The notes under the pieces: model-generated | Seen by the model: only the letters and a program-made list of their open reading frames with translations | The model's database searches: none | Told to the model about the DNA's origin: nothing | NCBI RefSeq assembly: GCF_030552475.1 | Contig: NZ_JAUPED010000007.1 | Coordinates: 124,001 to 188,000, forward strand | Direction of reading: 5' to 3' | DNA length: 64,000 bases | Source: Mariniflexile sp. AS56 | GTDB taxonomy: Bacteria > Bacteroidota > Bacteroidia > Flavobacteriales > Flavobacteriaceae | Program-made: the position numbers and the translations under genes | Shown: one piece after another, positions 915 through 19,070 of the stretch | Position numbering within the stretch: the stretch's first letter is position 1 | Layout of the letters: each line of letters begins with the position of its first letter

Positions 915-1859
915 ATGGCAAGAGTATCTACCGACATAATAACTAGTGCATTTGCTTTGTTAGAAAGTAAAATCAGCTTGAATTCTCATTTGAATCTTCA
1001 AGATATAAATATTCATTTGGAAAATATACTTAGGGATATACTGAATATTATTTACACTGACCGACAGTTTATTAATTTAAACACAGAAAAAGGTAATTAT
1101 ACTTCTATTGATTTAGGAGATAATATTAATGATATTTCTTTTCAAGTTACATCCACTACAACACCTAAAAAAGTCCGTGAAACAATTTCGAAATATAAAG
1201 ATGATTACAATTTCAAAAAAGTAATAATGTTATATGGAAAAATACAAAAACCGAAAAGAACTATAGATTTCGAAACAGAAATTGATGGACGATTTAAGTT
1301 TGAAGAATGGGATTTCAGTATGTTAGTTGAAAATATTAACGACTGCAAAAGTCACGAAATCAATCAAATTCAACAAATTTTAATAAATGAAGTAATCCCT
1401 AAAATTTCTGATAACTTTAAAATAGAAGATGATTCAGGTACTGAACTCTGGGACAATCTCGAACAAAAAGATATTAGAAATTTCAAAGATAAATTACTAG
1501 ATGTAAACTCTAATATTCGAGATGCTAGAATTGAAATGTATTGTAGAGAAATAGCTTCAGGAAAGGTAGAATTAAGCAACTATTCAGAAAGAGAAATCAG
1601 TGCTATGAAATACCGAGTTTTTGAAATTTGTCAAAAAGAACTTTTAGACTTCTGTGATGAAAATGAGAAAAAAGAATTAACACATAAAGAAATTAATAAC
1701 CTTATTACAAACTATACAGAACAAGCATATAAGATAATAGAGGAAAGAACAAAAGATTACTCTTATCCATTTAAAAATAAAGACACATTAAAAAAAATAG
1801 TATTAGCATTAATAGATGAGTGCTATCTTTCTTTTGATGAAAAAGGTATTTACTTATGA
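915..1859 (+). CDS. SMEK-domain protein, putative effector of an ABC-3C defence system
   Basis: 314 aa. The N-terminal ~110 residues fit the SMEK domain: helices, then SIDLGDNINDISFQVTS, where an Asp followed by a strand with Gln-Val-Thr resembles a restriction-endonuclease-like core. The C-terminal ~130 residues are helical and charged, fitting the accessory C-terminal domains of ABC three-component (ABC-3C) systems. The stop overlaps the next start (ATGA at 1856-1859), so the three genes are translationally coupled. ABC-3C systems are predicted anti-phage or anti-plasmid conflict systems. The nuclease role is inference. The family call comes from memory of motif and context. Very AT-rich, like the next two genes. 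Confidence 0.7.
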   Translation: MARVSTDIITSAFALLESKISLNSHLNLQDINIHLENILRDILNIIYTDRQFINLNTEKGNYTSIDLGDNINDISFQVTSTTTPKKVRETISKYKDDYNFKKVIMLYGKIQKPKRTIDFETEIDGRFKFEEWDFSMLVENINDCKSHEINQIQQILINEVIPKISDNFKIEDDSGTELWDNLEQKDIRNFKDKLLDVNSNIRDARIEMYCREIASGKVELSNYSEREISAMKYRVFEICQKELLDFCDENEKKELTHKEINNLITNYTEQAYKIIEERTKDYSYPFKNKDTLKKIVLALIDECYLSFDEKGIYL

Positions 1860-2359
1860 TAGCGACAAAAGAAAACGCAAAAAGGAGGTTGATGTATATT
1901 CAGAAAGAGGATTACAACTTTCTGGCGTATAATATATTACTTGTATTAAGTCAATTTAATGCCAATTCGGAAAGTTCAAGTTTCAAAGACTTTAGGAAAA
2001 TTGCTTATCTAGTGCATTTTATAAATTTGAATCCTGATTTTAATAGTTATGACCAAAATGAATTAGCTAAAATATATTCCCAAGCTCAATTAAAAAAACA
2101 ATTAATGTCTCATCTTTTAATTATTTTAAGAAACAGAAAGTTTATAGGAATGAGTATAAATCACATTCACCAATCATTTGACATTTGGATTAATGAAGAA
2201 AATATTCCAAAAGATTTTTTGGATAAAAACTTCTTTGAAAAGGAGATAAATAACATCCGATTTTTACAATCAAATATTAGTAGATTAAAAGGGGTTACGG
2301 TAAAAAAAATGGTTGACACAATTTTTACAAAAAACAATATTATTACATGGGAAGTTTAA
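1856..2359 (+). CDS. ABC-3C middle component-like protein
   Basis: 167 aa, small, basic and helical, with no signal peptide or membrane segment. It lies between the SMEK effector (4-bp overlap) and the SMC-like ATPase (13-bp overlap), which is the fixed place of the middle component in ABC-3C operons. The segment FLAYNILLVLSQF followed by FRKIAYLVHFI resembles the hydrophobic helical core of these linkers. The middle component is thought to couple ATPase state to the effector. The sequence alone is weak evidence, and the assignment relies mainly on context. Confidence 0.6.
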   Translation: MIATKENAKRRLMYIQKEDYNFLAYNILLVLSQFNANSESSSFKDFRKIAYLVHFINLNPDFNSYDQNELAKIYSQAQLKKQLMSHLLIILRNRKFIGMSINHIHQSFDIWINEENIPKDFLDKNFFEKEINNIRFLQSNISRLKGVTVKKMVDTIFTKNNIITWEV

Positions 2360-4266
2360 TAATAGAAAAAGTTAAGTATTCTGGTGATAAATATGTTTAT
2401 GAATCGCCATTACTTACCCGTGGAATAAATTTAATTGTTGGTGATAATGGCTCAGGTAAAAGTACGTTCACGTATTTTATAGAATATTGTTTAGGTAATA
2501 ATATTAAGTATTTTGAAAAAGATAACAATAAAGAATATACCGAAATAGTTAATGATACAAATAATTTTGTAGAGCTAGATATTCTAATTAATTCTAAAAA
2601 ATATCAGCTTAAAAGGTTCATTAATAAAAATGATATTTTTATTAATGACGATAGTGAAATTAGCATATTCCCTATTAAGAGAAATCAAAATAAAATATTT
2701 TCCGATTGGTTATTGGAAAAATTAGATATTTCTATTTCCGAACTCAATATGGGTACATATTCTTGGAAATTAAACTTTAGCGATTTATTAAGGCTAATAA
2801 TTTATGACCAAGACACAGAATCTAAGAAAATTTACAAGGCACCAATAGATTCAAATTTTGTTTCGGATTCACTAATCATCAGAAAAACAGTTTTTGAAGT
2901 TTTATTAGGTATATCATCTGATGAATATTTCAAAAAACATGATGAATTAAAAGTAATAACTAAGAAAAAAGATTCTGCTTTATCTTCATTAAATGATTTC
3001 AACGAAAAATATAGTGGTGTAGATTTAGAAAAAAATGGAATTGAAAGTAATTTAAAAACTTACAATGAAACATTAGAAAAAGTATATTTAGAAAGAAAAT
3101 TATATTTAAGTTCAAACACAAAAATTGACGAAAAAGCTGAATTTATTAACGGAGTGCAAGAAGAATTAATACAGACAGATTTAATAATTTCTGAAAAAAA
3201 TTTATTGGTTAATAATTCCCAAATTGAGTATAATAAAATCTCAAAATTATATGAAAATCAACAAAATGAAATTAAAGAAATTGAAAAAATAATCTTCACT
3301 AATGATAAGTTAAATTTATTCTCATTTAAATTATGTCCTTTTTGTATGTCAAATCACGAACCGACAAAAAATCATTGTCTATGTGGTTCTGAAATTAAAG
3401 ATGAGAATTATGAGAAGTTTGTATATAATTCTAACGAATATGATATTATTTTAAAACATAAATCTAAAAGTATAGAAACTATTCAAATTGCCTTAGATTC
3501 ATATTTCAAACAGATAACAAGTATTAAAAATGAATTAACCGTTTTATCTAAAAAATCAAGTGATTTAACTATAAAACTAAAAAAACTTATTAGTTCAATA
3601 GAATTTTCTGGAAATACTGAGTTAGTTGATAGTTTAAATGATAAAATATTAGATACAAAAAAGGAGTTAGATAAGTTTGAATATCTTTTAGAAATTTCAA
3701 TTAAGAAGGAAGAGTTGGAAGAAACATTTGATTCAATAAATGAAAAATACAAATCTATAAATAAGGAATTTAGAACACTTCACCTTGATTTTGTTTCTCA
3801 AAACAAATCGTTAATTAATGAATTTAACGAAATCTATTGTGATTTACTTCAAAAATCTTCGGCAGGTGCAGAAATTGCAGAAATTGATGATGATTATATG
3901 CCAATTATTGATGGAGGTGTTTATAAAAATAAAAGTGCTGATGTTCCTCTAAGGTTAATGTATTATTTTACAATTTTAGCTTTATCCTTAAAAAATGAAT
4001 CTGTAAAACATCCAGGTTTATTAATAATAGATACACCAGAGGATTCAGGTATAGATGAAGATAATTTAAAAAAAGATTTAGATTTACTCAATTTTGCAAT
4101 CCAACAAGGAGCAAGTAGTAAAAAAGAATATCAAATAATTCTAACAACTGGTTTAGATAAATACCCTGAATCCTTCAAGGAAAACATTAAAGATGAATTT
4201 ATTGAAAGTGAAGGAATATTTATACTAAAAGAGAAAACGGCCTCCGACAATGGATATGAAAAATAG
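2347..4266 (+). CDS. SMC/Rad50-like AAA ATPase of an ABC-3C system
   Basis: 639 aa. Walker A is GDNGSGKST at residues 32-40. A long coiled-coil arm is interrupted near residues 330-346 by CPFC and CLC cysteine pairs, forming a probable zinc hook like that of Rad50. The C-terminal ABC half has Walker B LLIIDTPEDSGID (Asp near residue 562) and a following strand QIILTTG. The start overlaps the middle-component gene by 13 bases. The protein probably senses or holds DNA and activates the SMEK partner. The last codons lie within the left arm of an attC-like palindrome. Family membership is clear. The defence role is inferred from operon type and position in ICE cargo. Confidence 0.8.
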   Translation: MGSLIIEKVKYSGDKYVYESPLLTRGINLIVGDNGSGKSTFTYFIEYCLGNNIKYFEKDNNKEYTEIVNDTNNFVELDILINSKKYQLKRFINKNDIFINDDSEISIFPIKRNQNKIFSDWLLEKLDISISELNMGTYSWKLNFSDLLRLIIYDQDTESKKIYKAPIDSNFVSDSLIIRKTVFEVLLGISSDEYFKKHDELKVITKKKDSALSSLNDFNEKYSGVDLEKNGIESNLKTYNETLEKVYLERKLYLSSNTKIDEKAEFINGVQEELIQTDLIISEKNLLVNNSQIEYNKISKLYENQQNEIKEIEKIIFTNDKLNLFSFKLCPFCMSNHEPTKNHCLCGSEIKDENYEKFVYNSNEYDIILKHKSKSIETIQIALDSYFKQITSIKNELTVLSKKSSDLTIKLKKLISSIEFSGNTELVDSLNDKILDTKKELDKFEYLLEISIKKEELEETFDSINEKYKSINKEFRTLHLDFVSQNKSLINEFNEIYCDLLQKSSAGAEIAEIDDDYMPIIDGGVYKNKSADVPLRLMYYFTILALSLKNESVKHPGLLIIDTPEDSGIDEDNLKKDLDLLNFAIQQGASSKKEYQIILTTGLDKYPESFKENIKDEFIESEGIFILKEKTASDNGYEK

Positions 4267-5546: not shown

Positions 5547-6404
5547 TTAATTTGGGTTATTGATATACTTATGTGATAGTTTCATCTCCATGTTTCTTTC
5601 TCCATGTTTTTCATTCAACTCCAAAATGACTCTACGGTCATTGGATAATGAGAACTTAGGCATCACATAAACAAAGCGAGCAGTTTCATTTTTTGCAATT
5701 TTTGAAGGTAGATCAAGTATGTAAATTGGTTCTTGTTCCAAACGTTGTAAAGACTTCCTTTTTCCTTTTTGTCGCGTCTCAACAGAAAGTTTTAAGAAAT
5801 TCAAGTCGTAATCCAAATTTGAACTATTTTCAATTTGAATAACAAAATATAATTCTTCTTTATCGAAAACAACATTCTCTACCTTGAGTTTAATTTTCGA
5901 TTGACGTCCCCTTTTTAATGTAGGGCCATGTTTTTTTTCAAGAAGATAAGAACAGAATTTTTCATAATAATAGTTTTTGTTATTTATGAATGCTTCGGTC
6001 GAATCTCTAACAATGGAATCAACTATAACCGGTTTTTCATTACCTATACTACTTGACAATGGAATGAAATAGTTTAGCTTGGATAATTGTTTTTTATATC
6101 TTACAATATACGAAAAAATCGCACCATTTATATTGATTACCAGTAGATTGCTTTCTTCGCCTGGTTTCGCCTGGAGTAAACCGAAGTACTGCTCTTTTTC
6201 TCGGTTGTATGTAAATATAAAGTTATCTGCACCAGTGACGCCTTGCCGTATGGGATCTGGAAAAAATAGAACCACATTTTTAGTATCATTGGCGTAAATG
6301 GTGTCAAGGACTGAGTTTGTTTGTATGGTAGCCTGTGCCCAACATAATCGAGGTGCGACCACTGACATAATTATAAGAGCTGATAAAATGATTTGCTTTT
6401 TCAT
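5547..6404 (-). CDS. traN: Conjugative transposon protein TraN (DUF4138)
   Basis: 285 aa. The signal peptide MKKQIILSALIIMSVVAPRL ends near the Ala after CWAQ. The body is beta-rich with the DUF4138/TraN pattern: an early strand with NDTKNVVLFFPDPIRQG, the middle motif GAIFSYIVRYKK, and C-terminal strands ending LSHKYINN. TraN is thought to take the VirB9-like place in the Bacteroidetes conjugation pore, at the periplasm and outer membrane. It follows traM by 31 bases in the same direction, as expected for CTnDOT-type operons. Confidence 0.85.
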   Translation of the reverse strand: MKKQIILSALIIMSVVAPRLCWAQATIQTNSVLDTIYANDTKNVVLFFPDPIRQGVTGADNFIFTYNREKEQYFGLLQAKPGEESNLLVININGAIFSYIVRYKKQLSKLNYFIPLSSSIGNEKPVIVDSIVRDSTEAFINNKNYYYEKFCSYLLEKKHGPTLKRGRQSKIKLKVENVVFDKEELYFVIQIENSSNLDYDLNFLKLSVETRQKGKRKSLQRLEQEPIYILDLPSKIAKNETARFVYVMPKFSLSNDRRVILELNEKHGERNMEMKLSHKYINNPN

Positions 6405-6435
6405 AAGAGTGCGTTTTTAAATGCCCATTATGGGC

Positions 6436-7365
6436 TCATAATTTTGGTTTTAAGATGAGTTCATAATTATTAAGTACGGTTATTTTTACGTTCCTATTGG
6501 TTCTTTTAAGTATTTTGGTAATGCCTCCAACTTGCGGAACGGCGGGGATATTGATATCTCCTATAATATCGTCGAGCACTTCTGTGGTGGCTTCTGCACG
6601 AAAATTATTTTCTACATAAATGCCTTCGCTACCATCTAATAAATCGTAGGCTTTAAGTTTGGTGGGATGGTGCTTAATATTTTCAATGTCAATGATGGCA
6701 CGATTGGGCTGAAAACTGATAAACCCAAATACTAAGGTGTTTCTATTCATTCTTTTGCCATTTACCAAAGCCGCTTTAGTAAGGCGCATTCTTAAACGTG
6801 TATTAGCTCTTACAATCTGGTCACCATCAACTACGACATGAATGGCCGCATCTGTATTTTCGAAATTTGAATTTTCACTCGGTTTAGGAGAAGCTGCAAA
6901 GAATAATTGATGTTCTAGACCCAGTTCTTTTGCGTGAATTTCTTGTTCTCTTTTAAAATCTGTTGAATCGATTTTTTTGTCCTTCTGTGATGCAGCTTTT
7001 TTGTAGCCCAAGTTTTGATAGGGTTTTTCTGAATATTGAATTCTACCAGCGTCATAAATACTATCTACGATACGCTCTTTTTCGCGTTCAGGAAAATCGG
7101 GGTCGTAGAAACCTAAGGAGTCAATTAATTTTTCGTCATAGATGCTGGGTGCATTGTTCTCACGAATTTCCTTCAAATCGTTAATAGCCTCCAGTTTAGA
7201 ATCATATTCTTTTTGATTTTCTTCTAAATCTGGAATTAAAGTCTGTTCCAAGTTTTTACTTTCACTTTCATCATTGCCCCATATCATTATGGAGTAAAAA
7301 ATCAGAAATATGAAAATCACAACCAATACAGATGCAAACACAATTTTGTTCTTTTCTATTTTCAT
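6436..7365 (-). CDS. traM: Conjugative transposon protein TraM (VirB10-like)
   Basis: 309 aa. A short cytoplasmic N-terminus is followed by one membrane segment (FASVLVVIFIFLIFYSIMIW), a long charged periplasmic linker, and a C-terminal beta domain. That domain contains VVDGDQIVRANTRLRMRL and NTLVFGFISFQPNRAII, the pattern of the TraM C-terminal domain. It bridges the inner and outer membranes in the mating channel, like VirB10. It lies between traK (29-base gap) and traN (31-base gap). traL, often found between traK and traM, is not present. Confidence 0.87.
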   Translation of the reverse strand: MKIEKNKIVFASVLVVIFIFLIFYSIMIWGNDESESKNLEQTLIPDLEENQKEYDSKLEAINDLKEIRENNAPSIYDEKLIDSLGFYDPDFPEREKERIVDSIYDAGRIQYSEKPYQNLGYKKAASQKDKKIDSTDFKREQEIHAKELGLEHQLFFAASPKPSENSNFENTDAAIHVVVDGDQIVRANTRLRMRLTKAALVNGKRMNRNTLVFGFISFQPNRAIIDIENIKHHPTKLKAYDLLDGSEGIYVENNFRAEATTEVLDDIIGDINIPAVPQVGGITKILKRTNRNVKITVLNNYELILKPKL

Positions 7366-7394
7366 GATTCTATTTATTAATATATGTTAGTGAC

Positions 7395-8009
7395 TTAATT
7401 TTCATTATTTAACTTTTTCAATGTGTTTTCAAAGTAATTGGTGATTAATAATCCATGTGGATTATTGGGGAAATTTCGGTCTACTAATATTAAGTTTCCA
7501 GTAGAAACTAATTCGTAAGTATCAACAGTAGTACCTCTGTTTATTTCAAAAACGGTACGTGTTTTAAAACTATAAGAACCATCAATTTCAGTAATTTCTG
7601 AATGAATGCTTATTACTTTTTGAACTAATGAATATTGCAAGAGCCTATTATAAACGCCATCGGCTTTTTTCTGACGGTATAGGTTATCCACGGAACTATT
7701 ACCAAGCCAAAGTGACTTTTCTAGATTGCGTTCGTAATTGCTCGCATCAATATTGTAGAAGTAGTTGTGGAACAAATCTAAATGCGCTAGTGCTTCAATT
7801 TGAAAGTTTTCTTTTTGGGTAACAAATTTTAGAGGGATGATACTTCCATCGGTATTTATAGCAAACGCACTATTATTCGCTTTTTGATTTGTCTGGAATG
7901 CCATCCAAAGGGAGAAACTACTTGATAGCAATGAGAAGGCCACAACGGCAAAAACAATTAACCGATTCCATTGTAATACTTTATAAATATTTGCATACGG
8001 TGTTTTCAT
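7395..8009 (-). CDS. traK: Conjugative transposon protein TraK (VirB8-like)
   Basis: 204 aa. A short cytoplasmic N-terminus MKTPYANIYKVLQWNRL is followed by one membrane segment (LIVFAVVAFSLLSSSFSLWM) and a periplasmic NTF2-like domain. It has the TraK-typical NNPHGLLITNYFENTL near the C-terminus. TraK is the assembly factor corresponding to VirB8. It starts 11 bases after the traJ stop, fully within the tra operon. Confidence 0.87.
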   Translation of the reverse strand: MKTPYANIYKVLQWNRLIVFAVVAFSLLSSSFSLWMAFQTNQKANNSAFAINTDGSIIPLKFVTQKENFQIEALAHLDLFHNYFYNIDASNYERNLEKSLWLGNSSVDNLYRQKKADGVYNRLLQYSLVQKVISIHSEITEIDGSYSFKTRTVFEINRGTTVDTYELVSTGNLILVDRNFPNNPHGLLITNYFENTLKKLNNEN

Positions 8010-8020
8010 TATAAATGATG

Positions 8021-8863
8021 TTAGTTAGTGAATAGTCTAAGTGTAAAGGTGGTGGCGCGGCTATATAGTTTGAATTTTAAGAACACGATAAACCCAACCG
8101 AACCCAATTGTACTACAGGTGCAAAAAAGGTTTGAGCGGTATCAGTTCCAAATAGATTTACCCAAAAATTTGTGTTGATTTCTGTGTATATAGCATTTAC
8201 AAATATGTTTACTAAAAAGAATGCTGGTACGAGCATATAGACCGCAGCGTACAATTTGAAAAATGAGTAGGCGAGTGACCTAAATTTTTCAAATACGGCT
8301 AAACTAATAACTAAAGGGAAAAAGGCCTGCATAATACCCAAGAGGAAATAGCGTTCTGCTAGGAACAATGGGTAAATGAACAAATCAAGAATCCATAAAA
8401 ATAAGCTAATAATAAAAGCCAAGACTTTAAATCCATACAGTGGTGTAACTAAGGCTTCATATAAAAGGGTCATGGCAGCCTTTGCCACTTCAATGACGCT
8501 CACCTCTTCTTTAATAGGGATATCCTGCATTTGTAAAGGCAGCAATGCTGGAGCCGTTCCACGGTATTGTGACTCAATGGCTACTAAAATACCATCAAAA
8601 AAAACCAAAACCTGTGTAGAAAAAATTACTACGATGACTATGGCAAAATTCTTAGCTAATTCACCAGGACTAAGTCCCCAGGTATAACCATCTTTATCAG
8701 CAATGCCTTCATTATATTTCTTAAGGATGTTAACCAAAAAGAAAAGTACCGCAAGCGTTTTCATTCCTGCAATAGTGTATTGAGAAAAACTGCTATTCTT
8801 TATAGTTTGGAAAACAGTATCAATGTATTCCAGTCCGATCCCTAAAATAATTGTTGCGGTCAT
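8021..8863 (-). CDS. traJ: Conjugative transposon protein TraJ (VirB6-like)
   Basis: 280 aa polytopic inner-membrane protein with about six to seven hydrophobic segments. Examples are AGMKTLAVLFFLVNILKKY and FFAPVVQLGSVGFIVFLKFK. Family features include TWGLSPGELAKNFAIV and a large loop with QYRGTAPALLPLQMQDIP. TraJ is the VirB6-like channel component through which DNA crosses the inner membrane. Its start lies 3 bases from the traI stop, so the two are tightly coupled. Confidence 0.87.
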   Translation of the reverse strand: MTATIILGIGLEYIDTVFQTIKNSSFSQYTIAGMKTLAVLFFLVNILKKYNEGIADKDGYTWGLSPGELAKNFAIVIVVIFSTQVLVFFDGILVAIESQYRGTAPALLPLQMQDIPIKEEVSVIEVAKAAMTLLYEALVTPLYGFKVLAFIISLFLWILDLFIYPLFLAERYFLLGIMQAFFPLVISLAVFEKFRSLAYSFFKLYAAVYMLVPAFFLVNIFVNAIYTEINTNFWVNLFGTDTAQTFFAPVVQLGSVGFIVFLKFKLYSRATTFTLRLFTN

Positions 8864-8866
8864 GTG

Positions 8867-9436
8867 CTAATATGCTGTTTCTCTGTTATTAATTTTATCC
8901 TGCAATTTTCTAAAGGATATAATATCCTTATACCTTTTAGTCTTCGTCTTAACATTGGAAACCATTTCTTTCGATTCCATTTCTTTTTCTTTAATAATAA
9001 TAGCTCTTTCAGCATCTGTCATTTTGAGATAATCACTCGAAAGAATTTCATCTATAAAATCAAGAGACTCCAAGGAATGATCTACAATGGCGGTGAAAGA
9101 TGCTGATACGTTTGATATTTCACTTGGTTTGATATAAGGGCTATTTAAAATGTCTCTTAAATCATTTTGCATCATTTGAATAAGTCGCTGATTGTTGCGT
9201 CCTATTTCGCGTACTGCTTTTAATTGCCTAACCACATTATTGACTTTTTCAATATTGTCTTTTTGGGTTTTCAAGAATTGAACGGTTTTAATGATGTTTG
9301 CAGTTTGTTTCCCAGATTCTATTAGTTGTTTTACCAAACTAACAAAATTGGTATTGTCATAAGTAGGTAACCCCTGAGCTTGAATTCTTAAACAGAATAG
9401 AAGTATCATGACTACGGTTAGAACTCTTGTTTTCAT
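8867..9436 (-). CDS. traI: Conjugative transposon protein TraI (DUF4141, VirB5-like)
   Basis: 189 aa from the start chosen here. That start puts the signal peptide MKTRVLTVVMILLFCLRIQA at the N-terminus, 4 bases after the traG stop. A longer in-frame reading would run into traG and bury the signal. The mature protein is helical, with an early SLVKQLIESGKQTANIIKT region and a central RQLKAVREIGRNNQRLIQMM helix. This matches TraI/DUF4141, a periplasmic VirB5-like pilus-tip or adhesin component. Its place between traG and traJ agrees. Confidence 0.8.
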   Translation of the reverse strand: MKTRVLTVVMILLFCLRIQAQGLPTYDNTNFVSLVKQLIESGKQTANIIKTVQFLKTQKDNIEKVNNVVRQLKAVREIGRNNQRLIQMMQNDLRDILNSPYIKPSEISNVSASFTAIVDHSLESLDFIDEILSSDYLKMTDAERAIIIKEKEMESKEMVSNVKTKTKRYKDIISFRKLQDKINNRETAY

Positions 9437-9440
9437 AATT

Positions 9441-11843
9441 TTAAGTTTTAGAAATGTATTCTTTAATAGCCAGTTCCATATTATTGGTTTTCCTATAAAT
9501 AGCCATGATGGCCTCGTTTTCCTGTCCATCCGTTAAATATGCGGCATAAACTTCTTTAGGAACTTCAAGCCTAAAAATGTTACTTTCCTTTCCGATCTTA
9601 ATGAATATTTCAGTGTACTTCCGTGGTCCAGAAAAATTGTTTTTAATGGATTTTAACTGATTCAAATCGTGGCTGGACAGGTTAAGACGTTTGACTAGTT
9701 CCTCATATCCTTTCTCGTTATTCAGGCTGTAGATAACCTGTGTGTTTTCTAAAATACTTGCCGATGTGGAGTTATTTGGAAGCTGATTGATGGATTGAAG
9801 AATAATGCCAATAGCACCGTTTTGTTTACGGATAGCTTGGTAGTAAAATTCTACACTTTCCAATACGTTTTCGAACTTCAACTGCTTAGCAAACTCGTCA
9901 AATAGGATAATTCCTTTTTCATCTCTATTTTTCCAAATGGTTCTTTGTATTGCTGATTTTATCAGCTTTAACATAACGGATAGAATTTCTTTATTGTCCT
10001 TGACTTCATCTAATTCAAAAACAATTAATCGTTTGTCTTCTATTTTATAGATTTGGTCTTCGCTGACTTCGAACAAGAAACTATATAGACCATCTCCGAC
10101 GTACTCGGACATGACGTGCAAAAAGCTTGTGACATTGAAGTAGTCGGGATGGATTTTGAGACGATCAAGAAGATGCTCCTGATTTCCTTCTATAAAATTA
10201 TAAAAACCTTCTAGAGAACGATTATCAAAAGTACTATCGTAATAGTGGCGTAGTATTTTTTTTACCGAAACGGATTGTGCTTTGCTCACTTTTAAATCTG
10301 ACGCAAACAATTCAAACAAAAAGATTGATAAATCCTCCAAACGTTCTGGAGTTAAATCATCGGAATCTGCAATGTAAAATGGGTTGATGCCTAAGTTCTT
10401 ACCACTCTCATAGCGAAGCACCGTGTATTTTTCAGGGTAGAGTTTAGCAAATTTGGTGTACGACCCTCCTAAATCAATAATGACTAGGCGAACACCACTC
10501 TCAAAATATTGTCTTAGAATATTATTAGCTAAAAAAGATTTTCCTTCACCTGTTGGTGCGAAAATGGCAAAATTCCGTGCTTTTACACGTTTCTTCCGTT
10601 CGTCCCAAACATCTTTTAAAACTGGAATATTATGTTCACGGTCATTAAAAATGATGCCAGTAGCATCCGATTTGTAATTAGTGTTATTGATAAAAAGACA
10701 TAATGCGTGTTTTAAATCTGTTACATACAAATCATAATTTGAAAAATTTGAAGAGAAGCAGCAGTAGCTATTTAATATATAGTTCTTGCGTTCTTCGCCT
10801 CGTGGATAGTATGGGATGATATCCAGTTCCTTGAATTCTGTTTTAATCTTTGATGTTATTTTATCCAACTCTTTGGCATCTTTTGACCAATAGACGATAT
10901 TGAGATGACCACGGACAATCCGAGCATTATCATCTGCATTGATTTGGTCGAGAATGTGTTGAGTCTTTCCAAGTACCACTTTATTCTGTGAACCGAAATT
11001 GGAACTCTTGTTAAGTTCCTCGATTTTCTTATCAAGCAACTTGCGCCACTTTTGTTTGTCGTCTAGATATAGAATCTGATTAACAATATGATTTTCATTA
11101 AGCGTAAGCCCTAAGCCATCAATAAACCCTTGATGAAACACAAAATCGTCCGAAGTGAATTTCTCATTGGTCTTGCTACTCTGTACACTTTCGCCAAAGC
11201 ACAGTTCGCTATTGATGGCAAGGGCATCAAAATGGTTTTCGCCAATATTGACGCTTTTTTTATCTAATAATATATCTGTATCAAAACCTTCATTGAAACC
11301 GTTGAAATAGCCATTGGTCAACTGCTGAATCTGTTCCGTTTTAAGCGGAAGGAATGCCATTTTTCTACTATTGTTTATAAAAGAAACCGAATCGCTTACC
11401 GAATTGGCGAAGCTTTTAATATTATCATCTAGTTTCTGTACAATTCCTTTTGAAACTTTACGGAAGGGATTGACATATTTTGGATTGTTGAGTGCCTTGT
11501 TTTTAGTTAAAATGAAGAACAAATAGCACTTGTGATCAATATGTCCGCGACCTTTGAAATGCTCGTGTGTGGCTTGTTCTAAAAAGGTTTTATTCGGAAG
11601 TTGTTCTGAAGAATAAGACTTCTTCAAGTAGATATCCTGTTTGTGAACCACTGTTCCAACTGGTAACGATTTCAAAGATTGAAACCAGGCACCGTGCATA
11701 TCCTCAAAATCCTTTTCGGATAAAGAGTATATTTCTGGAAGAATCCCTTCAAAGCATAAAACCACATTGCCATTAGTGGCAAATACGATATTGTCCTGAA
11801 TATCTGCAATGGGCCCGTATGCCGAAAGGTTAATCTTGTTCAT
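9441..11843 (-). CDS. traG: Conjugation ATPase TraG (VirB4-like)
   Basis: 800 aa. The N-terminal half is a VirB4-type domain with SEKDFEDMHGAWFQSLKSLP. The C-terminal half is a RecA-like ATPase with Walker A FAPTGEGKSF at about residue 430 and Walker B GIILFDEFAKQL at about residue 645. A conserved region with QAIRKQNGAIGIILQSINQL follows. It powers assembly of the channel at the inner membrane. The start overlaps the end of traF by 14 bases. Length is normal for Bacteroidetes TraG/VirB4 proteins, and the gene is intact. Confidence 0.92.
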   Translation of the reverse strand: MNKINLSAYGPIADIQDNIVFATNGNVVLCFEGILPEIYSLSEKDFEDMHGAWFQSLKSLPVGTVVHKQDIYLKKSYSSEQLPNKTFLEQATHEHFKGRGHIDHKCYLFFILTKNKALNNPKYVNPFRKVSKGIVQKLDDNIKSFANSVSDSVSFINNSRKMAFLPLKTEQIQQLTNGYFNGFNEGFDTDILLDKKSVNIGENHFDALAINSELCFGESVQSSKTNEKFTSDDFVFHQGFIDGLGLTLNENHIVNQILYLDDKQKWRKLLDKKIEELNKSSNFGSQNKVVLGKTQHILDQINADDNARIVRGHLNIVYWSKDAKELDKITSKIKTEFKELDIIPYYPRGEERKNYILNSYCCFSSNFSNYDLYVTDLKHALCLFINNTNYKSDATGIIFNDREHNIPVLKDVWDERKKRVKARNFAIFAPTGEGKSFLANNILRQYFESGVRLVIIDLGGSYTKFAKLYPEKYTVLRYESGKNLGINPFYIADSDDLTPERLEDLSIFLFELFASDLKVSKAQSVSVKKILRHYYDSTFDNRSLEGFYNFIEGNQEHLLDRLKIHPDYFNVTSFLHVMSEYVGDGLYSFLFEVSEDQIYKIEDKRLIVFELDEVKDNKEILSVMLKLIKSAIQRTIWKNRDEKGIILFDEFAKQLKFENVLESVEFYYQAIRKQNGAIGIILQSINQLPNNSTSASILENTQVIYSLNNEKGYEELVKRLNLSSHDLNQLKSIKNNFSGPRKYTEIFIKIGKESNIFRLEVPKEVYAAYLTDGQENEAIMAIYRKTNNMELAIKEYISKT

Positions 11844-12114
11844 AATTGAAGCCTGAATGTCTTTTGTTACTTATGGTTCTTGGAAAGGCCTTGGCCATCT
11901 GAAAAAGTTGTGGATTTTGGTTGATTCTTGTTAATGCGATATATAATCCAGCATTGAAAATCAGTATGGCGATAATCATTGCGAAGCTAAAAGAGAATAT
12001 GATTATTAAAAGCGAAGCAAGAATGGAAACCATCATTAAAGCAAATAGAGAAATGGACAGGCCAAATATGACTGCTCGTTTTCTTATGTTTTTATAGACC
12101 TCAAATTTTTTCAT
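11830..12114 (-). CDS. traF: Conjugative transposon protein TraF (DUF4133, VirB3-like)
   Basis: 94 aa with two adjacent membrane segments in the central 50 residues and the family's N-terminal FEVYKNIRKRAVIFGL. The C-terminal ends are short and charged. DUF4133/TraF proteins take the VirB3 place, next to the VirB4 ATPase, as here, where the reading frames overlap by 14 bases. It follows traE by 30 bases. Confidence 0.85.
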   Translation of the reverse strand: MKKFEVYKNIRKRAVIFGLSISLFALMMVSILASLLIIIFSFSFAMIIAILIFNAGLYIALTRINQNPQLFQMAKAFPRTISNKRHSGFNYEQD

Positions 12115-12144
12115 AGTGCTTGGAAATTATAACATCTTAGAGGG

Positions 12145-12432
12145 TTAAACTACGATTGAAATCAGATAAGTAAATATGCCAACAACTGCACCTGCAATAA
12201 GCACAAATACCAGAACTCTAGTAATACCTTTTTTCAGGTCTGCATTTTCCCCAAAGAAGTGTCCCGCATTAAAGAGGAAACCAACAAGGAAGATAACCCC
12301 TAATATTATTGGGAAAATTGTTCGGATGGTATCAGAAACATCATTAACGGAATCTTCAATACCTCCAATCTGCGCAAAAAGTGAAGTGGAGAATAATGAA
12401 ATAATAGCTGCGAAATAGTTTGATTTTTTCAT
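12145..12432 (-). CDS. traE: Conjugative transposon protein TraE (DUF4134, VirB2-like pilin)
   Basis: 95 aa. The signal peptide MKKSNYFAAIISLFSTSLFA is followed by IGGIEDSVNDVSDTIRTIFP and two hydrophobic helices. Between them is GHFFGENADLKKGITR, the DUF4134/TraE hallmark. This is the probable VirB2-like pilus or channel subunit and the first gene of the tra operon. Promoter and operator candidates lie just upstream at 12469-12499. Confidence 0.87.
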   Translation of the reverse strand: MKKSNYFAAIISLFSTSLFAQIGGIEDSVNDVSDTIRTIFPIILGVIFLVGFLFNAGHFFGENADLKKGITRVLVFVLIAGAVVGIFTYLISIVV

Positions 12433-12620: not shown

Positions 12621-13253
12621 ATGAAAAAAGTACTCAAAAACGTCAGTTTTGTCATTTTGCTTCTAAAAGTGTGCATCATGTTTGGACAGGAAACTGCAAA
12701 GCAAAAAAGAATAATTATTGACGTCGGACACGGTGGAAAAGATTCTGGTGCCATTGGAATAAATAAAATTCAAGAAAAAGATGTTGTACTCGATATTGCA
12801 TTGGAAATTTTAAGCTTAAACAAACAATCTAAAACGCCGTTGAATATTTACTTAACGAGATATAGTGACACACCTATTTCGTTATCGGATAGATCTAAGT
12901 TGGCTAAGGTTCTAAACGCAGATGTGTTTATTTCTTTGCATTGCAATCATTCGAATAATCCAAATGCTAGAGGTATTGAAGTTTATGTGTTTAATGAAAA
13001 ATCACAATATTCTGAGAATTCCATTTGGTTGGCTTTTGAGTTGCAAGCTTCATTCAAAAGGCAGTTAGGATTTGAAAGCAGAGGTGTGAAGTTTGCGAAT
13101 TTTCAGGTGTTACGAGAAACTCTAGATTATTTTCCAGCTGTGCTTTTGGAATTGGGTTTTTTGAGTAATCGAGATGAAAATAATTATTTTTCAAACCTCA
13201 ATAATATTCGATTGTCAGCATTATCAATATTACTAATTATTCAAAATTATTGA
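12621..13253 (+). CDS. N-acetylmuramoyl-L-alanine amidase (Amidase_3 family), transfer-associated
   Basis: 210 aa. A signal peptide (KNVSFVILLLKVCIMFGQ) precedes an Amidase_3 catalytic domain. Zinc-site motifs are IDVGHGGKDSGA (His), an early Glu in KIQEKDV, and FISLHCNHSNN (His). The catalytic Glu is in LLELGFLSNRDE. It cleaves the peptide stem from glycan strands and would open the cell wall locally for the mating channel. It is divergent from the tra operon and shares its control region, so transfer-linked expression is likely. The normal cell-division amidases are longer. This short ICE form lacks extra domains. Confidence 0.85.
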   Translation: MKKVLKNVSFVILLLKVCIMFGQETAKQKRIIIDVGHGGKDSGAIGINKIQEKDVVLDIALEILSLNKQSKTPLNIYLTRYSDTPISLSDRSKLAKVLNADVFISLHCNHSNNPNARGIEVYVFNEKSQYSENSIWLAFELQASFKRQLGFESRGVKFANFQVLRETLDYFPAVLLELGFLSNRDENNYFSNLNNIRLSALSILLIIQNY

Positions 13254-13356: not shown

Positions 13357-14019
13357 TTACTTTCTTTTATCCCCAGCGCCATCATCAAAAGACACCAAAT
13401 TAAATAATTCTCGCATTCGGCTACGAACTCGATGGCCATATCGTTCTTCTAGTTCATCGGCACCGAGGTTAGTAGTCGCATGTGTTTTGATTTTATGTTT
13501 GGTCTCAAGATAAAGCTCGTATCGAGATAAAAGTACTTCTCCCATCACATTAAGATCCTTACCATAAAATCTTCCAGTAGGCTCAATTCCTAAATCATCG
13601 AAACAGAAAAATTTAGTGTTTCCATAGTCTTCAATCGTTTTAAAGCCGAGGTGGTTAAAACTGAAGGCAACGTTCCGGCAAGGGATCATTTCGTAAGGTC
13701 TATGCTGTGGAACGATATGCCGAAGAAGTTTCATTAAAGTAGTTTTTCCACACCCTACTGGTCCAGAAAGAAGAATTCCTTTGTTTGGATCAATATTATT
13801 CTTCTGACAATTTTCTTTGTCTTTAATGAAATAATAGCACAGTTTACGAATGATAATCTGGTCTTCGTCATAGATTCTGAACTCTCTGCCGAAAAGTAAT
13901 TTCCCTTTCGCATTCAAATAAATTAGAATCTTATCGAAATCATAGAGAACGCTATTTCCATCAAACTCCCCAAGAGAATATTCCATGACACCTTCGGTAA
14001 TTTTAGAGGGGTTGTCCAT
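13357..14019 (-). CDS. DnaC-like helicase loader ATPase
   Basis: 220 aa AAA+ ATPase. Walker A GPVGCGKTT is at residues 86-94, Walker B is FFCFDDLGIEP, and an arginine-finger region GHRVRSRMRELFN lies near the C-terminus. This is the pattern of DnaC/IstB-type loaders. The start overlaps the upstream initiator-like gene by 17 bases. A DNA-binding initiator followed by an overlapping helicase loader matches lambda O and P and Gram-positive DnaD/DnaI pairs. Its probable role is loading host DnaB at the ICE origin. No transposase is adjacent, so an IstB transposition helper is unlikely. Confidence 0.8.
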   Translation of the reverse strand: MDNPSKITEGVMEYSLGEFDGNSVLYDFDKILIYLNAKGKLLFGREFRIYDEDQIIIRKLCYYFIKDKENCQKNNIDPNKGILLSGPVGCGKTTLMKLLRHIVPQHRPYEMIPCRNVAFSFNHLGFKTIEDYGNTKFFCFDDLGIEPTGRFYGKDLNVMGEVLLSRYELYLETKHKIKTHATTNLGADELEERYGHRVRSRMRELFNLVSFDDGAGDKRK

Positions 14020-14752
14020 AGTTTTTGTTTTTAGTGGTTCGCAAGTTGTCCTTAATTTGGGACGCTTGTTTTTTATTTGTTTTGTTTTCTTCGTCGAAAA
14101 GCTCGGTTCTATCCATCCAGTTGAGGGCTAAGGAGCGCCAATCTCTAATCGCTTTTCCATCGCTCGTTTTCCAATTCCGAGTTTCATAATGTTCGAAGAA
14201 TTTTTTTCCTTCATCAGCATTAAAACTTTTTTCAATAAAAAAATCAATAACGGCCTGCCAGCCCTTTTGTTTTATATTGTTTACTTGTTTGGTATTGTTT
14301 ATAGTAGATACCAATGCTTGTCCACTGGTGGGACGGTGCGAGTCCACAACTTGTCCATTTATGGGATGGTGCTGTCCCATAATCGGTACATTTATGGGAT
14401 GGTACCGTTCCGCAACCTGTTCTAATATGGGACTGTACCGTCCCATATCAGGTTCATCACTTGTCCCGATAATGGCCATCTTAATTTTACTGCCTTTATA
14501 TGGATTGTTGGAAGGAAAGTAGGATAAGTAGTTCCAAGAACCTAAATCGGTCACACATCTATGGTATGTGGATTTTGAGCCTATTTTTGAAGCAAGCATT
14601 AAATCCCTGCGGTTCACATAGAATTCGTCAGCAAATCGACTACTGTTCCATTCGTGGAACAGTGCCATATACAAACTGATATGGGTAGGATTAAGGCGGT
14701 CATCAAAATAGAACTTTTCAAAAGCCGCATTAAGTAGCTTTATATAGTTCAT
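14003..14752 (-). CDS. Replication initiator-like protein with winged-helix domain and internal repeats
   Basis: 249 aa. The N-terminal ~95 residues look like a winged-helix (DnaD/phage O-like): THISLYMALFHEWN, VNRRDLMLASKIGSKSTYHR, then a wing. The middle (about residues 104-147) consists of four 11-residue repeats rich in His, Pro, Ile and Gly (such as GQHHPINGQVV). These are encoded by the 33-bp DNA repeats at 14311-14442. The C-terminal part, WQAVIDFFIEKSFN through DWRSLALNWMDR, resembles the C-terminal helicase-loader contact segment of DnaD-like proteins. It overlaps the loader gene. The role in ICE replication is inferred from architecture. Confidence 0.65.
   Translation of the reverse strand: MNYIKLLNAAFEKFYFDDRLNPTHISLYMALFHEWNSSRFADEFYVNRRDLMLASKIGSKSTYHRCVTDLGSWNYLSYFPSNNPYKGSKIKMAIIGTSDEPDMGRYSPILEQVAERYHPINVPIMGQHHPINGQVVDSHRPTSGQALVSTINNTKQVNNIKQKGWQAVIDFFIEKSFNADEGKKFFEHYETRNWKTSDGKAIRDWRSLALNWMDRTELFDEENKTNKKQASQIKDNLRTTKNKNYGQPL
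14311..14442. repeat. Four 33-bp tandem direct repeats (iteron-like, candidate origin)
   Basis: The units are 14311-14343, 14344-14376, 14377-14409 and 14410-14442, all exactly 33 bp and all in frame with the initiator-like gene. A fifth partial unit may start at 14443. Each unit carries a GGGAtGGTgC core, and dyads such as ATGGGACTGTACCGTCCCAT (14427-14446, two mismatches) span unit joints. The repeat length is about three helical turns. Lambda has its iterons inside gene O in the same way. The function as origin is inference. Confidence 0.65.
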
Positions 14753-14755
14753 AAC

Positions 14756-15040
14756 TTATGAATTTGTACCGTGTTGAACACGATTGGCATTCATCACATT
14801 TTGAATTTCTTCGGCATCATAGTATAAGATACCACCCATTTTAGTGTAAGGTAGTGTACCATTGATACGCAGCGTTTGAAGAGTTCCTGGACTGACTTGC
14901 AGTAAGTCCATAACTTCGGAAGATTTGAGATACTTTTTAAGTTTTCCAGTGGCTTGTTTGGATAGTAATTTTTTAATGTCATCGAGCAATTCCATTTTGA
15001 ATTCTCGAAGGTCGTCTGTGGTAATAATATTTGCTGGCAT
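14756..15040 (-). CDS. Helix-turn-helix protein, excisionase-like
   Basis: 94 aa. A short helical N-terminus (DLREFKMELLDDIKKLL) is followed by a MerR/excisionase-type HTH_17 domain: KSSEVMDLLQVSPGTLQTLR, then GTLPYTKMGGILYYDAEEI. Such proteins bend DNA in excision complexes or act as regulators, and in Bacteroidota ICEs they correspond to the Xis2c/Xis2d-like genes. The initiator-like gene starts 3 bases after its stop, so excision and replication functions are likely co-expressed. Upstream, CCGTA/TACGG dyads (15164-15174 and 15302-15312) probably control it. Confidence 0.75.
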   Translation of the reverse strand: MPANIITTDDLREFKMELLDDIKKLLSKQATGKLKKYLKSSEVMDLLQVSPGTLQTLRINGTLPYTKMGGILYYDAEEIQNVMNANRVQHGTNS

Positions 15041-15163
15041 AATAGAACGGTTTTAAAGAAAGGGACTATCTGGATTTATACTTTTAATTGATAGTCCCTG
15101 ACCTGATTTGACTTTCGTTCTACAAATTTGGGGAGTATTATTGGGTTTTCTACCCCAGTACGA

Positions 15164-15174
15164 CCGTACTACGG
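15164..15174. promoter_or_regulatory. CCGTA-N1-TACGG dyad upstream of the excisionase-like gene
   Basis: CCGTA C TACGG is a perfect 5-bp dyad around one base, 124 bases upstream of the HTH gene start. The same dyad occurs at 15302-15312, and wider-spaced versions lie upstream of rteC. Probable regulator binding site. Confidence 0.5.
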
Positions 15175-15290
15175 TTAAAATTTAACATCTTGAAATTTGA
15201 TAGATTTTGACGTGTTTTGAGAGTAAGGTTAAAGAATTAGGCTATCAAATAACCCTAAATTAAATGGAAAAATCATTTTAAAACAGATTA

Positions 15291-15312
15291 CCGTAGGTTA
15301 ACCGTACTACGG
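15291..15312. promoter_or_regulatory. CCGTA direct repeat plus CCGTA-N1-TACGG dyad
   Basis: CCGTA at 15291-15295 is repeated 11 bp later (15302-15306) and the second copy is paired with TACGG (15308-15312). It is located between the rteC stop and the excisionase-like promoter region. The 11-bp spacing places the half-sites on the same DNA face, as for a dimeric activator or repressor. Confidence 0.5.
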
Positions 15313-15346
15313 TCTTTTTTAGAGTTGTATAATATTGATTAACAGG

Positions 15347-16183
15347 CTATTCTTCACTTTTTTTCATTTCTGATAATAAGTTATTTGCGAGTTCATCTAA
15401 AAATAAAGTTTTACTGTTTTTGCGATTTTTAATATACTGATATGTTTTATAAATATCCTTGGGTGTAAAATCAAATATTTCTTGCATAGTTTTGGAAACT
15501 TTCATTATGCTGTGGTCATCTTTTGTGCCCAATCCTTTTGCGTATAGTGCATATAGCATTTCTACGTAATCAGTATTCGAAAATGGCCAATGTATTTTTT
15601 CAATAGATTTAGCATCTTGTAATTTATAATTTATGCCTTTTAGTATTTTTTGCTTTTTTTCATCTAGGTACATAATCAACGAATCGTATGCTTTGTATTT
15701 GCCTAATAACATGTCTCGAGGAGTGCAGAATTCTGGGTCCTGAAAATAAAATTTTGAGGTAATGATGCGAAACGTGTCACTATTATCTCGGGTGTAATAT
15801 TCCTTGTCAAAATGAACAGATCCCGAATCGACATAACGCCCAAAATCAATATTGTACAAAAAGAAACGATTGAGTTTGTTGACTTTTTTCTTTATGAACT
15901 TCAGTTGATAATCTTTATCTGCTTTTGGAAAGTGGGTTTCAAAAGAATGGATTTCTGAGAAATAAATTAGTTCTATAAGCAGAATTTGCTTGGTTTTTTT
16001 GAAGAATGTTATTTCGTCTTTGATGGTATTGAATCCATTATTGAGTATTTCTTTCTTAAAAGTGGATAAGAGGTTGCTGCATTTTTCGATAGATTGGCAG
16101 GCTCTTTCTAAAATATCGTCATTTTGAATTTTTATTTCATCAAGATCTTTTAATAATTTGTTTGATAATAATTGGAAATCCAT
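15347..16183 (-). CDS. rteC: RteC-family regulator of ICE excision
   Basis: 278 aa, all-helical, basic and rich in Lys. The N-terminal half has the RteC pattern EITFFKKTKQILLIELIYFS. The C-terminal half has IHWPFSNTDYVEMLYALYAK and a terminal helical region with DFTPKDIYKTYQYIKNRK. Both are typical of RteC proteins, including the winged-helix-like C-terminal DNA-binding domain. In CTnDOT, RteC activates the excision genes. No RteA/RteB two-component pair is in the window. Two CCGTA-N6-TACGG dyads lie upstream (16355-16392), so control by the same regulator as the excision genes, possibly by RteC itself, is likely. Confidence 0.8.
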   Translation of the reverse strand: MDFQLLSNKLLKDLDEIKIQNDDILERACQSIEKCSNLLSTFKKEILNNGFNTIKDEITFFKKTKQILLIELIYFSEIHSFETHFPKADKDYQLKFIKKKVNKLNRFFLYNIDFGRYVDSGSVHFDKEYYTRDNSDTFRIITSKFYFQDPEFCTPRDMLLGKYKAYDSLIMYLDEKKQKILKGINYKLQDAKSIEKIHWPFSNTDYVEMLYALYAKGLGTKDDHSIMKVSKTMQEIFDFTPKDIYKTYQYIKNRKNSKTLFLDELANNLLSEMKKSEE

Positions 16184-17499: not shown

Positions 17500-18747
17500 T
17501 TAAATTATAGAATTTTCGGATTTGTTTTCAACAAATTTTTTCATTTTCAACCTTAAATCATTCATGTCATTACTTACTTTTAAGTCAATTATTTTGGCAT
17601 AATGTTGAGTTGTCCTTAAAGATTTATGACCAAGCATTTTGCTCACAGATTCAATTGGTACTCCATTTGTTAATGTGATCGTGGTTGCAAAAGTATGTCT
17701 TGCAAGGTGAAAAGTTAGATTTTTATTGATACTGCACAAATCGGCTATTTCCTTGAGGTAAGCATTCATTTTTTGATTGCTTAAAACAGGTAAAATTAAT
17801 TCTTTATTTAAAGAATTATGAAGCTTGGAATATTTATTAATAATGGCTTGTGGTATTGAAAGTAGAGGGATGTTACTGCGCGTATCAGTTTTTGTTCTTT
17901 TGGTCTTAATCCAGTTTGTACCATCCATTCCGATTACTATATCATCGTTATTAAGTTTTTTTACATCCGCATAAGCTAAGCCGGTAAAACAACAGAATAT
18001 AAATATATCTTTAACTTGATTTAATCTAGTTGCTGAGAATTCTTTATTAATAATATTTTGAATCTCAATTTCAGTAAGAAACTCTCTGTCTACAATTTTA
18101 AGTTTTGCCTTCCAATTTAAAAAGGGATCCTTGCTAATCCAATCATTAGCGTATGCGATTCTAATTATCTTCTTAAAATTTGTTACGTATTTTATTGCTG
18201 TATTATGAGCACAGCCTCTTTCTTTTTTTAGATAATATTCGAAGCCCGTGATAAATTTATGATCTACATTCTTAATAGGTATGTCGTTAGTGCCATAATC
18301 TAGGATAATATAATTTTCAACATGCTTTTTAGCAGTTTTATAGCGTTCTACGGTGCCTGGAGCAAATTCTTTACCAACTAGCTTTTCAGTTTTATCATTA
18401 TGTATTTGAAAAATTTCTAAAAGCATTTTTTGTTTCGATACTTTGCCCAGGTATATATTTTTAATGCCTTCAGCAGTAATGAATATCTCATCTTCTGTCA
18501 ATTTTTCGTGAATTTTGAAAACCTTATTTTTAATTGAATCCATATATCGGTTCAATTTTCGAACATCATCAGTAGTTCCTCTCAACTTACCTGCTTCAGA
18601 GTTCCATTTATTTAAAGTTACTTTCCTTTTAATACTGAATTCGCTGCGTTTTCCATTAACCGTAATTCTTAAATAAACAGGAGCATTTCCCATTTTATCA
18701 ATGTCATTTCCACGAGGGTAAAATAGTAGAGAAAATGTATTTTGCAT
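17500..18747 (-). CDS. Tyrosine recombinase (ICE integrase)
   Basis: 415 aa. Arm-binding and SAM-like core-binding domains are in the first ~220 residues. The catalytic domain has HLARHTFATT (HxxR), MLGHKSLRTTQHYAKI (His and the nucleophilic Tyr) and a Lys-containing beta-turn TKRTKTDTR. At the usual ArgI position the sequence reads FTGLAYADV, with Ala instead of Arg, as is common in Bacteroidota integrases (IntDOT also lacks ArgI). It catalyses integration and excision. It is transcribed away from the tRNA-Ser gene at the element's end, the standard ICE layout. Confidence 0.92.
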   Translation of the reverse strand: MQNTFSLLFYPRGNDIDKMGNAPVYLRITVNGKRSEFSIKRKVTLNKWNSEAGKLRGTTDDVRKLNRYMDSIKNKVFKIHEKLTEDEIFITAEGIKNIYLGKVSKQKMLLEIFQIHNDKTEKLVGKEFAPGTVERYKTAKKHVENYIILDYGTNDIPIKNVDHKFITGFEYYLKKERGCAHNTAIKYVTNFKKIIRIAYANDWISKDPFLNWKAKLKIVDREFLTEIEIQNIINKEFSATRLNQVKDIFIFCCFTGLAYADVKKLNNDDIVIGMDGTNWIKTKRTKTDTRSNIPLLSIPQAIINKYSKLHNSLNKELILPVLSNQKMNAYLKEIADLCSINKNLTFHLARHTFATTITLTNGVPIESVSKMLGHKSLRTTQHYAKIIDLKVSNDMNDLRLKMKKFVENKSENSII

Positions 18748-18962: not shown

Positions 18963-18985
18963 AGTGGAATTTGATACATTCCTTG

Positions 18986-19070
18986 CGGAGAAAGAGGGAT
19001 TCGAACCCCCGGAGGTGTGACCCTCAACAGTTTTCAAGACTGCCGCATTCGACCACTCTGCCATTTCTCC
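18986..19070 (-). tRNA. tRNA-Ser (anticodon UGA)
   Basis: 85 nt. On the minus strand it begins GGAGAAATGG and ends TTTCTCCG. The acceptor stem GGAGAAA/TTTCTCC is perfect. The anticodon loop is CTTGAAA with anticodon TGA, for UCA codons. The long variable arm GAGGGTCACACCTC is typical of serine tRNAs, and the T-loop is GGTTCGAATCC. CCA is not encoded. The ICE integrase lies on its 3' side, so this gene is the likely integration target. It remains intact after integration. Confidence 0.96.

Follow-up and report, generated by a model that had tools for sequence, protein, structure and literature searches.

The plan of placing a replication origin inside the gene of its own initiator is known from phage lambda and from RepA_N plasmids. 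In lambda and the Stx phages the origin lies in the O gene, and the extra iterons of Stx phages add residues to the O protein (PMC7466680). In pSK41 four Rep boxes are located centrally inside rep, and the segment that encodes the linker is the origin (PMC5703833). Modules that combine an initiator with DnaC have already been reported in Firmicute IMEs, where they were proposed to maintain the excised form (PMC5704250). Here we describe a module of this plan in an ICE of Mariniflexile sp. AS56, found in a 64,000-nucleotide stretch of DNA (the window), whose initiator belongs to a family without a model in Pfam or NCBIfam among those searched. We consider it highly likely that the initiator gene also contains the element's own origin, that this is read by the gene product with recruitment of the loader, and that the outcome is replication of the excised circle.

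The closest described systems each match a part of this module. As in lambda O/P, iterons and an A+T-rich tract lie in the middle of the initiator gene with the loader gene directly downstream, and the difference in O length between the Stx phages and lambda is paralleled by the loss of 33 bp from the linker in 717-nt initiator alleles. In contrast to lambda, the initiator does not match O in sequence and falls into no Pfam family at E up to 1, its partner is an AAA+ loader of the DnaC type, and the array consists of 11-bp half-sites that include inverted sites rather than of lambda iterons. Hence the term lambda O/P-like, used in a first-pass annotation, holds for the iterons, the tract and the downstream loader but not for the initiator, which is no sequence homologue of lambda O and whose nearest fold is RepA_N. 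Indeed, RepA_N (pSK41 Rep) provides the nearest solved fold for the N-terminal winged helix and has its repeat boxes central in the initiator gene, but there is no detectable sequence similarity and no match to the RepA_N Pfam (PF06970) at E up to 1. Moreover, RepA_N plasmids act through DnaG, whereas here a DnaC-like loader gene follows, and the staphylococcal plasmids represent a different phylum and element type from a Bacteroidota ICE. In prophages and IMEs of Firmicutes (Tn6104 and streptococcal IMEs), a replisome organizer is likewise paired with DnaC in an integrative element, while the present carriers are full Bacteroidota ICEs, the initiator is without a family model among those searched, and an origin-type array is identified. 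Gp55 and gp56 of Polaribacter phage Freya come close, with a homologous N-terminal domain (46%), a DnaC-like gene next to the initiator homologue, repeats in the linker and the same A-rich tract, but the recognition helix is NTYT, the repeat is GATAATAGTAGT, the C-terminal part is longer and different, and the carrier is a phage. The earlier statement that no such module was known from Bacteroidota ICEs agrees with the open-access literature, in which we found none of this kind, although this does not prove absence and the initiator-plus-DnaC pairing had already been reported for Firmicute IMEs.

The module is encoded on the minus strand. The initiator gene (14003..14752, 249 aa) is followed by the gene for a DnaC-like AAA+ helicase loader (13357..14019, 220 aa; phrog_50 DnaC-like helicase loader, E 4.3e-19), a P-loop ATPase of the DnaC/DnaI type with the Walker A sequence GPVGCGKT. 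Their reading frames overlap by exactly 17 bp (14003..14019), as had been noted before, and the offset is -17 in most homologues and -4 in another group. The span 14003-15040, earlier taken as a whole for the replication module, comprises the initiator gene and also a separate excisionase-like HTH_17 gene (14756..15040, minus strand, 94 aa; PF12728 E 1.1e-7; phrog_66 excisionase E 5.1e-7) that heads the probable operon. No Pfam family was obtained for the initiator at E up to 1, and none from NCBIfam or PDB sequence profiles; an NCBIfam DddY match and a phrog ADP-ribosyltransferase match were both weak and were discarded.

AlphaFold2 models were made for 24 homologues. The winged helix is predicted with confidence (pLDDT 82-94 in blocks over residues 1-90) and, taken together with PDB matches, is encoded by 14465..14752 on the minus strand (residues ~1-96). 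Residues 99-161, encoded by the repeat array and the A-rich tract, are largely disordered, and a C-terminal helical domain of three predicted helices follows (residues ~165-223, 14084..14260, minus strand). The best PDB neighbours of the winged helix are 4pql (Z 10.2), 4pt7 (Z 9.7; titled 'Structure of initiator') and 5kbj (Z 9.1; titled 'Structure of Rep-DNA complex'), all of which we regard as RepA_N proteins of staphylococci. Unrelated winged helices score, at best, within ~1-2 Z of these matches, so the likeness is at the level of the fold only, and by Foldseek alone no match in the PDB reached significance (RepA_N at best E 0.08). Among viral models the matches are to proteins that initiate replication or organize the replisome, one of which is the replication protein of a Tenacibaculum phage. 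The winged-helix-like domain proposed in the first-pass annotation is thereby supported, with matches to origin-binding RepA_N domains. A PDB structure search with the C-terminal domain alone gave no informative match and carries no evidential weight; this domain is probably the part that contacts the helicase or its loader. Some homologues (L061, L101 and similar) are shortened to 160-178 aa and are without it, but keep the winged helix, the array and a conserved NYxxPL tail beside the loader start.

The segment encoding the linker contains four 33-bp units, each of 3 x 11 bp (14311..14442, minus strand), as defined by period analysis and the clade consensus. A period of 33 is the sole strong one in the initiator gene (69/99 positions match), and 48/66 matches were obtained compared with a maximum of 35 after codon shuffling. 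The four repeats had been described previously as in frame and of exact length, which is correct, but the copies are inexact (73% and 61% identical to the reference) and the finer 11-bp unit had been missed. The inexactness of the copies is why Tandem Repeats Finder did not report the four-unit array. The consensus of the 33-bp unit in this clade is GGACAaGttGT / GgACccgCACC / GTCCCatnaGT, which comprises a pair of direct half-sites and a single inverted one. Based on enrichment and spacing, the iteron array covers 14316..14467 (minus strand) with half-sites GGGACAAG/GGACAAG/GGGAC and inverted GTCCC that are mostly 11 bp apart. The near-palindromic GGGAC-n-GTCCC dyads noted earlier are real, for example with arms at 14422-14436/14437-14451 (87% complementary, 0 gap) and at 14360-14381/14426-14447 (86% complementary). 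The coding sequence of the initiator hence contains iterons of the origin type, as sequence features. No DnaA box was found near the array, which would be relevant only if DnaA were needed.

Directly 3' of the array in the gene is an A+T-rich tract (~14265..14309, minus strand; TRF 14267-14301) that was overlooked in the earlier description of the initiator gene. Its sequence, TATAAACAATACCAAACAAGTAAACAATATAAAACAAAA, is built of 9-bp repeats of the TAAACAATA type, and it adjoins the iterons as a candidate duplex-unwinding element. In the 75 nt that follow the array in the homologues, TAAACA occurs 124 times compared with 62 expected and TAAACAAT 35 times compared with 4.7 expected, always on one strand. 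Two reading frames share the WAAACA words equally (97 and 97).

A winged-helix domain together with inverted GGGAC/GTCCC dyads, which are typical of dimeric operators, could also mean that the repeats are operators and the protein mainly a transcriptional autoregulator, with the loader used elsewhere, and the Freya homologue is annotated as a transcriptional regulator. We regard this as unlikely, since the sites lie ~285-435 bp within the coding sequence beside a conserved, strand-asymmetric A-rich tract, many homologues have direct repeats only, and the coupling to a DnaC-like loader is invariant. An operator role may nevertheless coexist with an origin.

The setting of the module is that of a conjugative element. 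A tra (type IV secretion) block with a TraG/VirB4-type ATPase, TraK, TraM, TraN and neighbours (5547..12432, minus strand) lies on one side, and on the other is the tyrosine integrase of the ICE (17500..18747, minus strand; PF00589, PF13102, PF17293), adjoined by a tRNA-Ser(tga) gene (18985-19070) that is the likely attachment site. On the far side of the ICE are a DUF5712 gene, which is presumably relaxase-like, and the gene for a coupling protein that has a TraG-D_C domain. The integrase, the relaxase-like gene, the coupling protein and the conjugation genes are thus together in one element, as is characteristic of Bacteroidota ICEs, and the ICE context given in the first-pass annotation is borne out both in the window and by the tra genes of related loci. 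A search for the ends of the ICE found no attachment-site direct repeats of at least 14 bp. Genes for a SMEK-domain protein and an SMC/AAA-type ATPase, together with a small gene (915-4266), separate the coupling protein from the tra block and resemble defence cargo. An N-acetylmuramoyl-L-alanine amidase gene (12621-13253, plus strand) lies between the tra block and the replication module and was detected in 63/80 related loci. A comparison of 80 named loci, almost all of them in Flavobacteriaceae, found the loader beside the initiator in every case (80/80), the HTH gene in 79 and RteC in 74; TraE, TraF and TraG were detected in 61, 59 and 58, respectively, within the 10-kb flanks that limit gene detection. 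The gene order is conserved.

Carriers of the module extend beyond this ICE. The same genome (G000) has four initiators (C47:138006, C13:43304, C2:158418 and C47:2131), three with a loader; the fourth copy (L097, G000:C47:631-5000) has a convergent integrase gene next to it and no DnaC-like loader beside it. Across the phylum 52/395 genomes match the initiator, about half of them in Flavobacteriaceae. A circular 25,320-bp Marivirga plasmid record contains the HTH gene, the initiator with array and tract, and the loader. In this record the loader frame crosses the record start and ends early and the integrase is partial, so it may be a degraded element. Similar modules also occur in phages without an ICE lifestyle, which is a point against an origin that serves the ICE. 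Specifically, the module might be phage-derived and no longer serve ICE replication, instead competing with or exploiting related phages or supporting only second-strand synthesis after transfer, and the presence of up to four copies in one genome as well as of relatives in phages would fit with this. We think it quite improbable, as most ICE copies have kept intact frames and origin features over wide divergence, the position in the ICE operon is conserved, and there is the circular plasmid record.

The conservation of the array at the DNA level was analyzed with homologues from 397 genomes sampled from Flavobacteriaceae, of which 125 had a match. The enrichment set consisted of 92 non-redundant homologous genes, and the null model exchanged the codons of identical amino acids inside a gene, so that both protein and codon usage were kept. 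Compared with these synonymous shuffles, GRACAAG is enriched ~2.5-fold (171 vs 70.5), GGKACAAG ~8-fold (58 vs 7.5) and GGGAC-n-RTCCC dyads ~20-fold (46 vs 2). Loose half-sites in the linker number 636 compared with 323 expected, at least three half-sites are kept in 87/92 genes, and a slight excess of the loose pattern is seen in the region encoding the N-terminus as well (188 vs 142). On the strength of the shuffles we rejected the possible artefact that the repeats are a mere mirror of a low-complexity linker. Outside the clade of the window, the core motifs are spaced by 11, 12, 22, 33, 45 and 56 bp and fall into two main reading frames (98 and 70). The occurrence of the same DNA word in different frames disfavours an explanation at the protein level. 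The alignment of homologues also confirms the earlier expectation that the array would be kept while the linker peptide changes, as homologues with the same motif array have wholly different linkers (GTSDEPDMGRYSPILEQ..., GTSGGTSTDTSSGTTPGTSSEQ..., DKGTDKGTVKGSSKGTDKG...). In seven close homologues of 717 rather than 750 nt (239-aa alleles) exactly 33 bp are absent in the linker, and in the alignment of one of them (L037) the 11 missing residues fall there. Two distant homologues, L213 and L218, have clear inverted pairs in the linker (TGTCCCAATAATGGGACA and GTTCAAATTTTGAAC) in place of direct repeats.

At the level of sequence, the type of motif covaries with one residue of the recognition helix. 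Where His follows the TY of this helix, the linker has ACAAG/GGGACA-type sites (102/102 homologues), and where the residue is not His it has GATAA-type, GGTACTGATAA-type 12-bp repeats (7/7), although the homologues compared cluster by phylogeny, with the non-His group forming one phage-like clade, and the motif classes were set after inspection, so the Fisher value is no independent test. The non-His homologues are from phage-like contigs and phage Freya, and they also keep the A-rich tract with AAACA words. An eighth non-His case, L211 (TYV, GATAATAGTACTGATAAT), agrees by eye.

These data bear on whether the repeats act in mRNA as hairpins or as an RNA-binding site that controls translation of the overlapping loader, which might be expected from the good folding of the window's array as RNA (z -4.5) and from the core motif being almost always on the coding strand. 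This we consider very improbable, since the motif follows the DNA-recognition helix and three direct-repeat relatives have no folding excess (z -0.9, 0.7 and 0.3), and RNA folding was rejected as a conserved feature. That the repeats merely encode a flexible linker, with their DNA likeness a by-product of repeat expansion, is scarcely credible: the linker is predicted to be disordered, is rich in Gly/Ser/Thr in some homologues and can lose 33-bp units, but the motif exceeds synonymous expectation, sits in different frames and encodes unrelated peptides.

Upstream of the HTH-initiator-loader operon are two perfect palindromes, ACCGTACTACGGT, at 15163..15175 (an operator candidate) and at 15301..15313, 138 bp from the first, and beyond them is the gene for an RteC-family regulator (15347..16183, minus strand; PF09357 E 1.9e-56). 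Of the 80 named loci, 44 have an RteC at least 45% identical to that of the window and 36 have a divergent RteC or none; the palindrome occurs in 43 of the former and 0 of the latter, and its spacing is 137-139 bp in 31/33 pairs. In CTnDOT, RteC activates the excision operon (PMC10865816). Because their presence tracks the RteC type, the paired CCGTANTACGG palindromes are candidate sites for RteC proteins of this class, or else for another regulator inherited with them, for instance the LuxR-type gene, which likewise correlates with the palindrome (38/40 vs 5/40). As an excisionase-like gene heads the operon and the palindromes track the RteC type, expression of the replication genes is probably coupled to excision, with the two being induced together.

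Taking the motif excess, the covariation with the recognition helix, the loader linkage, the plasmid and phage carriers and the RepA_N fold match together, it is very probable that the initiator gene houses a theta-type origin belonging to the element itself. We propose that the N-terminal winged helix binds the central array of its own gene, in which a spacing of 11 bp puts the half-sites roughly in phase with the DNA helix, and that the resulting nucleoprotein complex opens the neighbouring TAAACA tract with its strand asymmetry. Recruitment of the DnaC-like loader, the product of the overlapping gene, would then fall to the conserved tail and the C-terminal helical domain, and the loader would place the replicative helicase of the host on the unwound strand. 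Copying from this site would begin once the ICE has been excised as a circle, and this autonomous replication away from the chromosome would stabilize the circle in both donor and recipient. Expression of the operon would be coupled to excision via the RteC-linked paired palindromes. A broader proposal, for which we see about even chances, is that this widespread, unnamed initiator family of Bacteroidota, found in ICEs, phages and at least one plasmid, defines its own class of self-contained replicon, in which an array of 11-12-bp half-sites in the initiator gene evolves jointly with the recognition helix and RteC-class regulators of the ICEs tie expression to excision, so that the ICEs would in effect be inducible theta plasmids.

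The persistence of Bacteroidota ICEs after excision has been little studied, and the papers that we found report rolling-circle amplification or nothing. An origin-initiator-loader unit in many Flavobacteriaceae ICEs makes plasmid-like replication directly testable and would be a source of origins from which vectors for marine Flavobacteria could be built. The pairs of recognition helix and half-site across the ICE and phage versions are a natural specificity series, and incompatibility is predicted between ICEs with common half-sites. Two of the four initiator modules in the genome of the window are 91% identical and have similar arrays, and incompatibility of these co-resident ICEs is possible.
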